Assembly (NCBI GenBank): GCA_002869005.1 | Contig: PKTU01000026.1 | Location: 1-62,336, forward strand | DNA: 62,336 bases | Source of the DNA: Deltaproteobacteria bacterium | Lineage (GTDB): Bacteria > Desulfobacterota > Deferrisomatia > Deferrisomatales > BM512 | Reading direction: 5' to 3' | Shown here: one piece after another, positions 25,254 through 36,381 of the stretch | How the letters are laid out: every line of letters begins with the position of its first letter | Numbering within the stretch: the stretch's first letter is position 1 | Program-made: the position numbers and the translations under genes | The notes under the pieces: model-generated | Databases searched by the model: none | What the model was told of the DNA's origin: nothing | The model's input: the letters and a program-made list of their open reading frames with translations, nothing else

Positions 25254-25310
25254 AAAAAGGTGCGGGCTTAAATATCTTCTTTTTCCTTTGGACAATTTTT
25301 GACATAATCA

Positions 25311-25435
25311 CCCGGTCTCCGAGCGGATTATCCCTAAGGGCCTAAGCCTATGAGTGGTTCGCCGATGGGTCGCGCTGCGAAAGTGCGCGGCCTCCCGCGT
25401 TTGGAAAGGAGCTGTCGTGGCGCACCTGTGTGTCC
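25311..25435 (+). promoter_or_regulatory. Molybdenum/tungsten cofactor (Moco/Tuco) riboswitch upstream of tupABC
   Basis: The leader holds the conserved blocks I recall for the Moco RNA motif: CTCCGAG (25317-25323), GCCGATGGG (25361-25369) and a 23-base block 25389-25411 containing GGCCTCCCG and GGAAAGGAG. The last two blocks and the first are identical in a second element at 36240-36381 in this window, which gives independent comparative support. A CATAAT -10 box lies at 25303-25308. It sits directly before a terminator hairpin and the tungstate transporter, so an OFF switch that senses the cofactor is likely. Moco versus Tuco specificity cannot be told by eye. Confidence 0.85.
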
Positions 25436-25468
25436 ATGCCCTCCCTTCCATCGGGAGGGCATTTTTAT
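25436..25468 (+). terminator. Riboswitch-linked intrinsic terminator
   Basis: A 10-bp stem (25436-25445 with 25453-25462, GCCCTCCC core) is followed by a T-rich tract. It lies between the riboswitch and the tupA start, so it is the probable expression platform for premature termination. Confidence 0.85.
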
Positions 25469-25498
25469 TTGGACCTCTTTTGGAAAGGTGACCACACA

Positions 25499-26308
25499 AT
25501 GAAAACGAAGCTTTTATCACTCCTTATGGCGGCGCTCATCGTCGTCCCCTCCATCTCTTTAGCGGCCGAGACGCGCCTGAGGATGTCTACGACGACCTCC
25601 ACAGAGAACTCGGGTCTCCTTGCCGAGCTGATTCCCCCCTTTGAAAAGGCTGAAGGCGTTAAGGTCGACGTCATCGCGGTCGGCACAGGCAAAGCGTTGC
25701 AGCTGGGCCGAAATGGCGATGTCGACGTGGTATTCGTACATGCGCGTTCCGCCGAGGACAAGTTTGTCGATGAGGGTTACGGTACTTACCGTAAGGACGT
25801 TATGCACAATGACTTCGTCATAGTAGGCCCTCCCCAAGACCCCGCTGGGCTGGCCTCGGCAAAGGACCTCTCCTCCGCCATGGCCGCTTTGGCAAAGGGC
25901 GAAGCCACCTTTGTCTCGCGCGGCGATGACTCCGGCACTCACAAAAAGGAGAAGCTGCTCTGGAAGACTGCCGGGATAGCACCCTCCGGTGGCTGGTACG
26001 CGGAAGCCGGGCAGGGGATGGGGGCCGTCCTGACCATAGCGGATGAAAAGCGAGGCTATGCGCTATCGGATAGGGGAACTTTCATAGCATATGGCGGCAA
26101 GGTGGACTTAAAGGTTCTCTTCGAGGGGGACCAGAGCCTTGCCAACCCTTATGGTATAATCGCTGTAAACCCGGAAAAACACCCCCAAGCCCGGTTCGGA
26201 TTGGCAAAAGCGTTCATCGATTATGTTGTAGGTGAGCAGGGCCAGAAGATAATTCGTGGTTTCAGGAAAAACGGGCAGCAGCTTTTCTACCCTGATGCGA
26301 TAAAGTAG
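25499..26308 (+). CDS. tupA: Tungstate ABC transporter, periplasmic binding protein
   Basis: 269 residues from the ATG at 25499, with GAAAGGTG upstream; an upstream in-frame start would put translation inside the terminator hairpin. Signal peptide MKTKLLSLLMAALIVVPSISLA. The mature protein opens with the TupA oxyanion motif STTTSTENSGLL, and 'VGTGKALQLGRNGDVDVV' and 'SRGDDSGTHKKE' follow, all diagnostic of TupA rather than ModA. Binds WO4(2-) for delivery to TupBC. Expression is probably controlled by the leader riboswitch. Confidence 0.94.
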   Translation: MKTKLLSLLMAALIVVPSISLAAETRLRMSTTTSTENSGLLAELIPPFEKAEGVKVDVIAVGTGKALQLGRNGDVDVVFVHARSAEDKFVDEGYGTYRKDVMHNDFVIVGPPQDPAGLASAKDLSSAMAALAKGEATFVSRGDDSGTHKKEKLLWKTAGIAPSGGWYAEAGQGMGAVLTIADEKRGYALSDRGTFIAYGGKVDLKVLFEGDQSLANPYGIIAVNPEKHPQARFGLAKAFIDYVVGEQGQKIIRGFRKNGQQLFYPDAIK

Positions 26309-26323
26309 AGAATTCATAAGAGC

Positions 26324-27013
26324 ATGGACTATCTCTCCGCCTCGGCAGCCGTCGCCGCAGACTTGATCCTTGATTTTGATCCGGAGGTTTATGGAATTGT
26401 ACTGACCTCATTGAAGGTCTCGGTGTCGGCGACCGTGGCGGCGTCTTTGATCGGCGTGCCGCTGGCGCTTTCTATCGCCTTGAACAATTTTTGGGGCAAG
26501 GCTTTTATCAGGCTGCTTTTAAACACCCTCATGGCGTTACCCACGGTAGTCGTGGGCCTCTTTGTTTACGCGCTAATCGGGCGCGCAGGGGTGCTGGGAG
26601 AGCTCGGATTGCTCTTTACCCCCGCCGGAATAATACTTGGCGAAACGCTCCTTGCGCTGCCTATTATCACCAACCTCACCCTCGTAGCGGTGGAGACTCT
26701 GGACCCACGCTTTTTTAAGACTTGCAGGTTGCTTGGCGGGTCCACGGCACGAACGGCGAGGGCAGCGCTATTCGAGGCGCGCCTGGGCATCCTGGCGGCT
26801 CTGGTTGCAGGGTTCGGCAGGGTTGTTGCCGAGGTCGGCGTAGCCATGATACTCGGAGGCAACATTAAAGGCTTCACGCGCACCATGACCACAGCGATAG
26901 CCCTTGAGACCTCAAAGGGAGAGTTCGCCCTCGGGCTAGCTTTGGGCGCCCTGCTCTTGCTTGTGGCGCTGGGAGTTAACGGGGCGCTCTTCGCCATAAG
27001 GAGACGCGCATGA
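26324..27013 (+). CDS. tupB: Tungstate ABC transporter permease
   Basis: 229 residues with five to six hydrophobic segments and the ABC permease EAA-type loop 'EARLGILAALVAGFGRVVAEVG'. Inner-membrane partner of TupA and TupC. Lies 15 bp after tupA and overlaps tupC by 4 bp. Confidence 0.93.
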   Translation: MDYLSASAAVAADLILDFDPEVYGIVLTSLKVSVSATVAASLIGVPLALSIALNNFWGKAFIRLLLNTLMALPTVVVGLFVYALIGRAGVLGELGLLFTPAGIILGETLLALPIITNLTLVAVETLDPRFFKTCRLLGGSTARTARAALFEARLGILAALVAGFGRVVAEVGVAMILGGNIKGFTRTMTTAIALETSKGEFALGLALGALLLLVALGVNGALFAIRRRA

Positions 27014-28008
27014 TCGCCTCCGTCTACCAGCTGAGAGGGGTCTCGTATACTTATGAGGGCAGTGATAAACCCGCGCTCGATATCGGGGAGCTGTCGATCA
27101 GAGGAGGTGAAGTCACTGTATTCACAGGCCCCAACGGGTCGGGCAAGTCCACTCTCCTCTCCCTTCTGGCACTAGACATCGCTCCCGCAACGGGGGATCT
27201 TCTCTTTTTCGGCGAACGCCCCATTTCAGCCCGTCACAGGAGCCGCATCGGCATCCTGGACCAACACCCATACCTCTTTGATATTAGCGTTAGGGCTAAT
27301 GTTGAGTGGGGGTTAAAGGCCCGAAAGTTGATGGATGATATGGATGAAAGGGTCGGAAAGGCTCTTTCCGACCTCGGCCTCTCCTCCTATTCGGAGCGCA
27401 GGGCCCGTAAACTCTCCGGAGGCGAGATGCAGCGGGTAGCCCTCGCAAGGACGTTGGTTTTAAACCCCGATATACTCCTGCTTGATGAGCCAACGGCGCA
27501 TGTGGATGCTTCAAGCCGCGAGAGGATCGAGCGCATAGTCAAGGAGTGGGTGGCTCGCGAGGGTGGAACGGCTATCGTGACTACGCATGACGTTGCGTTG
27601 GCCCAACGCCTTGGCGGAAGCGCCTACAGGCTTCAGGAGGGCAAAGTTTCGGCTTCCGGTGTCGACAATGTCTTTATGGGGCACTTTGTAATGGGTGAGG
27701 GAGGTGTTTTCGATACCGGGCACATCAAGATTAACGTTGCTGGCAAGAGGCAGGGTAAGGCTGTGACGCTCCGGGCTGAGGAGGTTATCCTCTCCACGCA
27801 CCACCTGGAGTCGTCGGTGAGGAACAACCTTGAAGGAACTATTACCGACGTTTCATTGGGCGACGGCGGATTGTTGCTGGTGACGGTGGACTGCGGTGAG
27901 CGTATCGTAGCCTCCATCACAACCTCCGGCTGGGCGGATCTTGGTGTGTCAGTGGGTGAACGCGTCCACGTATCCTTCAAGGCGTCGGCGCTCAGGGTTG
28001 TCGAGTAG
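27010..28008 (+). CDS. tupC: Tungstate ABC transporter ATP-binding protein
   Basis: 332 residues. ABC ATPase: Walker A GPNGSGKST (about residue 39), signature LSGGEMQRVALA (about 136), Walker B ILLLDEPTAH (about 157), H-loop VTTHD. The last 70 residues look like a TOBE oxyanion-binding domain (SVRNNLEGTITDVSLGDG), which could give feedback inhibition by intracellular tungstate or molybdate. Energises TupB; translationally coupled to it. Confidence 0.93.
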   Translation: MIASVYQLRGVSYTYEGSDKPALDIGELSIRGGEVTVFTGPNGSGKSTLLSLLALDIAPATGDLLFFGERPISARHRSRIGILDQHPYLFDISVRANVEWGLKARKLMDDMDERVGKALSDLGLSSYSERRARKLSGGEMQRVALARTLVLNPDILLLDEPTAHVDASSRERIERIVKEWVAREGGTAIVTTHDVALAQRLGGSAYRLQEGKVSASGVDNVFMGHFVMGEGGVFDTGHIKINVAGKRQGKAVTLRAEEVILSTHHLESSVRNNLEGTITDVSLGDGGLLLVTVDCGERIVASITTSGWADLGVSVGERVHVSFKASALRVVE

Positions 28009-28023
28009 CTAGCGAGACCAAAG

Positions 28024-28099: not shown

Positions 28100-28357
28100 T
28101 TACATTTTAAGGTCTACATCCTCCAATGATTCCGTCGTGAAGTTGCGCACTACGCCTGCTCCGACCCGCATCGCCAGCGCCAGCGCGTGGCGTATCTCTG
28201 CTTCAGTCGCCCCTGCCTTCTTCGCCGCCGCGAAGTGGTTATTCAGTCATGTGGGGCAGCGCGCGAAGGCGGTGGCTGTTATCAGACAGAGCTCTTTTGT
28301 CTTATCGTCAAGCGCTTCGGTGAATTCAAATTCAAGAAACTTCTGTTTGAGGCCCAT
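28100..28357 (-). CDS. AhpD-like (carboxymuconolactone decarboxylase-fold) selenoprotein, in-frame TGA as Sec
   Basis: Reading through one TGA (28247-28249) gives an 85-residue protein. It starts at ATG 28357 with GGAGCT six bases upstream and ends at TAA 28100. Around the TGA the peptide reads ARCPT-U-LNNHFAAAKKAGATEAEI. This is the AhpD/CMD core, in which a CxxC is followed three residues later by His and then by GAT-EEI. The TGA sits exactly at the second Cys, giving CxxU. A stem-loop starts 11 bases after the TGA, with a loop that begins GG, as in bacterial SECIS elements. AhpD-fold proteins use CxxC for thiol-dependent peroxide or disulfide chemistry. The start is 9 bp after the zinc-ribbon gene, so it is co-transcribed. 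Without readthrough only a 36-residue peptide results. A Cys-to-TGA mutation is the alternative, but the intact downstream codons argue against it. Confidence 0.82.
28220..28235 (-). promoter_or_regulatory. Putative bacterial SECIS hairpin
   Basis: On the minus strand CTTCGC, loop GGCG, GCGAAG forms a 6-bp stem, extendable by two C-G pairs across a small internal loop. The apical loop starts 18 bases after the TGA and begins with G. This fits the bacterial SECIS pattern I recall: loop 16-37 bases after UGA, with a G in the first two loop positions. Confidence 0.65.
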
Positions 28358-28366
28358 TTTGAGCTC

Positions 28367-28738
28367 CTATTTGTCGAAGGGGAGGATATCCACGCCGTTG
28401 TCGGCGCGTTTTTCACCTCGCAATAGCTCCATGTGACGGAGCACTGAGAAGGCGCGCTCGAGTTTGGAGTTTTCGATTCCCAGCTTCTCGGCGATCTCTT
28501 CGCGGGGAACACGCCCCTTCGATATGACGAGATTATAGAGCGAGCGCTCGGGCTCCTGGAGAGTCTTTATCGCATCCTCCTTGGACCCTATTGATGATGA
28601 GGCCATCTTGACCGCCCAGGGGTCGCAAGCTTTCGCGGGCGACATGAGCGTCATCGCGCAATCCTCGCAGACCTGCTGTGCGCCGTGGTCCACTATCTCC
28701 TCTTCGGGGACGTCTGCCTTGCACCTTTGACAAATCAT
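28367..28738 (-). CDS. Zinc-ribbon protein with winged-helix-like C-terminus
   Basis: 123 residues from ATG 28738; an upstream in-frame ATG would lie inside the preceding gene with no ribosome site, whereas GGGAG lies about 10 bases before 28738. The N-terminus has CQRC and CEDC pairs (zinc ribbon). The C-terminal half reads like a helix-turn-helix: 'SKGRVPREEIAEKLGIENSKLERAFSVLRHMELL'. Possibly a DNA-binding redox or metal regulator. It sits between an Isf-like flavoprotein and the AhpD-like selenoprotein, with overlapping signals, so the three form one operon. Function not recognised more precisely. Confidence 0.7.
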   Translation of the reverse strand: MICQRCKADVPEEEIVDHGAQQVCEDCAMTLMSPAKACDPWAVKMASSSIGSKEDAIKTLQEPERSLYNLVISKGRVPREEIAEKLGIENSKLERAFSVLRHMELLRGEKRADNGVDILPFDK

Positions 28739-28752
28739 GATCCGGTTTCTCC

Positions 28753-29325
28753 CTATGCGTAAAGTTTCTTCATAAGCCATGCCATGTTAATGCCGAGGGT
28801 ACGCATGGTGTCAATGCCCTCCTCGTCGTTTTCCACGTCACCCTTGTCCAGCCCTATTCCCATGTTCCAGTAAGAGGATCCTGGGACCACCATCTCATTG
28901 ATGCCGAAAAAATGGTTGAGCGTGTCGTAGGTGTGTAGGCTGCCCGCGCGCCTGACAGCCACAACCGCGGCACCAACTTTCCTTCTCATGAGGGTTCCAT
29001 TGGCGCGTGAGACATATCCGGCGCGGTCGATGAGCGCCTTCATCTCGGCGGTTACATCCGTGAAGTAGACGGGGGAGGCGAGTATTACACCATCCGCCTC
29101 GAACATCAGCTTCATCACATCGTTGGCGTCATCGTTTACCGCGCACTTTTGATTCTGCTTTTCTATGCACTTTCTGCATGCGATGCAGCCCCGTAGCTTT
29201 TTGCCTGCCAGCTCAACGAGCTTAGTTTCAATGCCCTCCGCTTCAAGCTCTTTAAGGACATGATTTATCAGGTGCGTAGTGTTGCCGCCTTTTCTTGCGC
29301 TGCCATTTATTGCTACTACCTTCAT
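28753..29325 (-). CDS. Iron-sulfur flavoprotein (Isf-like NADPH-dependent FMN reductase family)
   Basis: 190 residues. Flavodoxin-like fold: N-terminal VVAINGSARKGGNTTHL FMN-phosphate loop and 'ILASPVYFTDVTAEMKALIDR'. Between strand 2 and 3 is CX2CX2CX7C (Cys 47, 50, 53, 61), the compact motif that binds a [4Fe-4S] cluster in Isf proteins of anaerobes. Isf proteins accept ferredoxin electrons and reduce O2/peroxide in methanogens. First gene of the trio leading to the selenoprotein, which fits an oxidant-defence role (inference). AAGGAG lies just upstream of the ATG. Confidence 0.85.
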   Translation of the reverse strand: MKVVAINGSARKGGNTTHLINHVLKELEAEGIETKLVELAGKKLRGCIACRKCIEKQNQKCAVNDDANDVMKLMFEADGVILASPVYFTDVTAEMKALIDRAGYVSRANGTLMRRKVGAAVVAVRRAGSLHTYDTLNHFFGINEMVVPGSSYWNMGIGLDKGDVENDEEGIDTMRTLGINMAWLMKKLYA

Positions 29326-36239: not shown

Positions 36240-36381
36240 AGGGAGGACCTCGGGCGCAACGCGACCGTCCTTCTCTCCTTTCCAAACGCGGGAGGCCCTG
36301 CCGTTTCCGGAAAAGCCCATCGGCTGACAACCCTGGGGCGCTGCCCGTTAGGTCGTTTCGCTCGGAGATGTAAGGATTGTA
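36240..36381 (-). promoter_or_regulatory. Second Moco/Tuco riboswitch with its promoter
   Basis: On the minus strand, TTGCGG (36405-36400), an 18-bp spacer and TACAAT (36381-36376) form a promoter. CTCCGAG follows at once (36367-36361), then GCCGATGGG (36324-36316), a CCG-GAAA-CGG tetraloop hairpin, and a 23-base block (36297-36275) identical to that of the tupA leader. The variable regions differ, as expected of two real copies of a structured RNA. Confidence 0.8.

Follow-up and report, generated by a model that had tools for sequence, protein, structure and literature searches.

A conserved in-frame TGA very probably specifies selenocysteine in a small stand-alone AhpD-like protein

AhpD-like selenoproteins carrying a CxxU motif have been described since 2005-2008 (PMC1088965, PMC1794560, PMC2398784), and a 2026 review lists CxxU forms under NF041047, TIGR01926, PF02627 and NF041238 (PMC13188914). 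The 'distant AhpD homolog' with CxxU (NF041047/GSU3128) is itself a described family (PMC1794560, PMC9312934, PMC13188914), and the novelty of the locus reported here is therefore low; GSU3128 by that name was not found mentioned in the literature searched. The proton relay of M. tuberculosis AhpD involves the residues E118, C130, C133 and H137, and the conservation of a fifth relay position is reported to be less than absolute (PMC3141380). Contact of this enzyme with AhpC is made by Cys133, not by Cys130 (as reported in PMC6626918). For the signal that recodes the UGA, the bSECIS model describes a loop of 3-9 nt, a stem of 4-16 bp, a G in the first two loop positions, a distance of 16-37 nt from the UGA and a minimum free energy of -7.5 or lower (PMC13188914).

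The gene studied here lies on the minus strand of the window, that is the whole stretch of 62,336 nucleotides that was analysed, and belongs to a host assembly of 2.6 Mb in 192 contigs. A sequence-only reading had proposed that an in-frame TGA interrupts a small carboxymuconolactone-decarboxylase (CMD)/AhpD protein exactly at the second Cys of its redox CxxC, with a His four residues further on and the remainder of the domain intact in the same frame. The TGA is present at the predicted place (Table 1), and translation with TGA read as selenocysteine (Sec, U) gave the product MGLKQKFLEFEFTEALDDKTKELCLITATAFARCPTULNNHFAAAKKAGATEAEIRHALALAMRVGAGVVRNFTTESLEDVDLKM. This protein contains the redox motif C34-P-T-U37 together with H41 and E22, so that each of these points was borne out, and no damage to the frame other than the TGA was seen. 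The ATG of the selenoprotein gene follows the upstream gene's stop codon after 9 nt. Between positions 28009 and 28366 the standard list of open reading frames is empty or holds antisense frames only; an ordinary gene caller would consequently miss the gene, as had been anticipated, and the locus represents a clean case of a gene deleted by ordinary annotation.

Table 1. Coordinates of the selenoprotein gene, its signals and its upstream neighbours in the window.
Feature	Position	Strand	Remarks
CDS, AhpD-like selenoprotein	28100..28357	(-)	ATG 28357-28355; stop TAA 28102-28100; 85 residues, Sec = residue 37; translated with TGA = U
Sec codon, in-frame TGA	28247..28249	(-)	residue 37, second position of CxxU
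SECIS stem-loop	28220..28235	(-)	CUUCGC 28235-28230, loop GGCG 28229-28226, GCGAAG 28225-28220
Likely ribosome-binding site GGAG	28364..28367	(-)	overlaps the upstream gene's stop codon; from sequence
Two-CxxC zinc-ribbon and winged-helix protein	28367..28738	(-)	upstream, probable same operon; weak HTH_metalloreg match, 19 bits
NADPH-dependent FMN reductase family protein	28753..29325	(-)	upstream, probable same operon; Pfam FMN_red, 122 bits

The read-through protein was searched against CMD/AhpD families, as the sequence-only reading had advised, and matched Pfam CMD (PF02627) with 47.3 bits (2e-12; gathering cut-off, 23 bits), well outside what chance would give. Its nearest model is NF041047 (GSU3128 family), with 75.2 bits and an E-value of 3e-21, below the curated cut-off of 110 bits; the copy of an order-mate (G008) also scores below this cut-off (76.2 bits). 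Because of this shortfall the window protein stands as a divergent relative uncertified as a member and, going by these matches, it is best called a divergent relative of the GSU3128 family, a kind of family that is already known. The window gene extends the known Sec-AhpD family past Geobacter-type bacteria, at a score below that at which the NCBI model rescues such genes.

Distant homologs have Cys at the position of the window Sec, and a single base change converts TGC into TGA. A Cys codon (TGC/TGT) that was mutated in a pseudogene, or misread during sequencing, would thus give the same picture in one genome. The close homologs, however, all have TGA, and close relatives with neither Cys nor Sec at this position, named in the sequence-only reading as evidence against the gene, were not encountered. 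In a search of 59 relatives, the same TGA was found in the sister species (G001; 94-95% identity), in three order-mates of the window genome (G005, G006 and G008) and in G035. A scan of named genomes, using protein patterns that left out the Sec codon itself, revealed TGA at this codon in 57/57 homologous loci. In a 395-genome sample of the phylum, one TGA was present in all 20 hits above 100 bits, while the best stop-free hit reached 69 bits. The search with NF041047 in the order of G035 (Geobacter-type genomes) gave the same result: 91 of 91 hits over the cut-off are full-length and contain one TGA, and the sole other hit is confined to residues 1-32, ending before the Sec position. No Cys version at the Sec position was found in the clade, whether among the close homologs, the 57 loci or the 91 full-length NF041047 hits, and in the order of G035 the NF041047 family appears to be strictly Sec-dependent. 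The in-frame TGA aligns with the functional redox Cys of the Cys-type homologs, as expected of a selenoprotein. Comparison of the window gene with the sister copy shows 38 of 83 codons with synonymous differences and 4 with an amino-acid change (20 and 1 before the TGA, 18 and 3 after it), and judging from these codons purifying selection acts on the gene upstream as well as downstream of the TGA. The identical TGA is shared by the sister species, whose genome was assembled independently, and by over 100 further genomes; this, the excess of synonymous differences on either side of the TGA and the otherwise undamaged frame all argue against error or decay. We rejected this explanation on the conservation of the TGA and give it practically no credence.

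The sequence-only reading had also pointed to a SECIS-like stem-loop with a GG-starting loop at the right distance from the TGA, and both the fit to the bSECIS model of PMC13188914 and the conservation of the pairing sustain this. The stem of 6 bp carries a tetraloop starting with GG, the start of the loop lies 17 nt past the TGA, and the predicted fold has an energy of -9.1 kcal/mol, values that all fall within the model. To count the stem pairs, we aligned 65 sequences, among them six MduS-like genes, without gaps and with the TGA as the fixed point. Positions 15-20 after the TGA pair with positions 25-30 in 65/65 sequences. The sole covarying pair is a compensatory one, U16-A29 being replaced by C16-G29 in the six MduS-like genes; only one is seen because coding constraint holds the stem nearly invariant. 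The tetraloop starts with GG in 60/65 sequences and has G as its second base in the other five, every sequence having a G at loop position 1 or 2. Concomitantly, the wobble positions are frozen in the codons +4 to +9 that form the stem-loop: in 59 sequences they read CAC (59), TTC (59), GCG (55), GTC (38 of 39 Val), GCG (59) and AAG (59), and the entropy per codon over CAC TTC GCG GNC GCG AAG is 0-0.4 versus an expected 1.0-1.9. Many codons adjoining the stem-loop use their full synonymous range in the same 59 sequences. Other codons of the gene are also below the expected diversity, partly through shared ancestry, but none matches the unbroken run of the stem-loop, and only 28% of the synonymous ways of encoding the peptide would preserve the stem. 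When sequences were folded singly, their energies were unexceptional in comparison with shuffled ones (z from -0.2 to -2.1), so that the support for the SECIS element rests on conservation.

We also looked in the host genome for the genes of Sec insertion, as the sequence-only reading had recommended, and all four were found: selA (575 bits), selB (373 bits), SelD (359 bits) and, in the host assembly, a tRNA-Sec with a TCA anticodon (selC). The lack of machinery that would have counted against the proposal is therefore contradicted. The host SelD gene itself contains an internal in-frame TGA. In G005, about 90 bases lie between the end of selA and the start of the Sec-AhpD gene, an arrangement which suggests a link between the Sec-AhpD gene and the Sec machinery. 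Decoding of the TGA as another residue (by Trp recoding, for instance) or near-cognate read-through, in either case with no Sec inserted, would have to be reconciled with the presence of this machinery, with the use of TGA as an ordinary stop elsewhere (the sister's copy, for instance, ends with it), with a conserved SECIS element at a fixed distance and with the redox Cys aligned to the TGA in Cys-type homologs. Nothing specific spoke for such alternative decoding, which was rejected on conservation and on the Sec machinery and is extremely improbable. Taken with this machinery, the conservation strongly suggests an intact selenoprotein gene whose TGA is almost certainly read as Sec. No convincing case of a second TGA-interrupted gene was found in the remaining intergenic gaps of the window.

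The structure model of the window protein is all-helical and of high confidence (pLDDT 91), and its best Foldseek matches in the PDB are CMD/AhpD proteins such as TM1620 (TM 0.76-0.77) and RclX, with modest E-values (best, 1.8e-3). In the alignment, E22, C34, U37 and H41 are the counterparts of E118, C130, C133 and H137 of M. tuberculosis AhpD, with exactly the same spacing and with identity shared apart from Sec in place of C133; the four residues are invariant or nearly so across the alignments. The fifth relay residue of AhpD (His132 or Tyr) is a Thr in the window protein. Given the reported contact of C133 with AhpC, the Sec sits at the attacking position; none of the genes immediately around the window gene was recognised as AhpC-like. 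These comparisons indicate that the protein is probably a selenium-based peroxide/disulfide reductase of the AhpD type.

We propose that the stem-loop just past the UGA would direct SelB with Sec-tRNA(Sec) so that Sec is inserted and termination avoided, yielding an 85-residue all-helical AhpD/CMD fold in which Sec would stand in for the second Cys of the CxxC, the one that solvent can reach. The target of attack by the Sec selenolate would most likely be either a peroxide or a disulfide in a partner protein. C34 would resolve the product as a selenenylsulfide, which a cellular reductant would then reduce; the flavin reductase of the probable operon is a speculative candidate for this role. 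A quite different activity, the handling of a metal, a metalloid or an organo-metal, is brought to mind by the fusion of AhpD domains with Sec at this position to methyltransferases (MduS) and to an arsenite methyltransferase (NF041537), by the occurrence of MduS-like genes in the same order and by the weak resemblance of the immediate upstream neighbour to metalloregulators. The stand-alone protein, however, retains the E-C-U-H set of peroxidase-type AhpD, and no metal-resistance genes were recognised in the immediate operon. We consider the metal role unlikely, and reduction of peroxide or disulfide remains the preferred function.

The succession of the FMN reductase, the zinc-ribbon/winged-helix protein and the selenoprotein gene is kept in the sister species. 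Clustering of neighbours revealed no operon conserved with the Geobacter copies. The zinc-ribbon/winged-helix protein has a conserved CDPWAV motif, is found in 9/12 genomes of the order and has no confident family name; in G008, a relative of it stands directly before a Cys-type CMD gene. Elsewhere in the window we observed two molybdenum/tungsten cofactor riboswitches, at 25305-25427 (+) and at 36259-36377 (-). The first is located just upstream of a three-gene set (25430-28008) that resembles a tungstate-type ABC transporter.

On balance we lean towards placing the window gene and its same-order relatives in a separate, uncurated sister subfamily of GSU3128, the two together perhaps forming an AhpD-type lineage in which Sec is invariably required and the SECIS element is frozen into the active-site helix. 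In many thiol-redox selenoprotein families, Cys versions outnumber Sec versions, unlike in the lineage proposed here. The apparent absence of Cys versions (0/91 full-length hits) makes this a good family for asking why some AhpD enzymes need selenium.

Several known systems can be set beside the window protein. In MduS (NF045649), the AhpD domain carries Sec at the equivalent place and the SECIS element lies in the same register, but the domain is fused to a methyltransferase domain. Moreover, the sequence after Sec is SLAxAR in MduS instead of HFAxAK, Ser taking the place of the active-site His, which is thus absent from MduS. Further genomes of the order encode methyltransferase-AhpD proteins with an in-frame TGA (L017, L018, L020, L021, L025 and L027), which have the SECIS element in this register too and likewise Ser in place of the active-site His; L017 matches MduS with 499 bits. 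M. tuberculosis AhpD (1GU9) shares the Glu-Cys-x-x-Cys-His relay with identical spacing and, by a weak match (Foldseek E-value 2.6), the all-helical fold; it differs in having Cys for Sec and a longer chain, of about 170 residues in the solved structures, and its similarity to the window protein is low. The Cys-type CMD/AhpD proteins TM1620 (1VKE/1P8C) and RclX (7Y4R) are the best PDB matches in fold and sequence, whereas their CxxC is devoid of Sec and their chains are longer, at 112-145 residues. The Geobacter members of NF041047/GSU3128, with about 38-47% identity, differ from the window gene in their gene neighbourhood but resemble it in length, in the positions of the CxxU, His and Glu and in being encoded by a stand-alone gene; in these copies too, the CxxU is followed by the His, and the SECIS element lies within HFAxAK in the same register.
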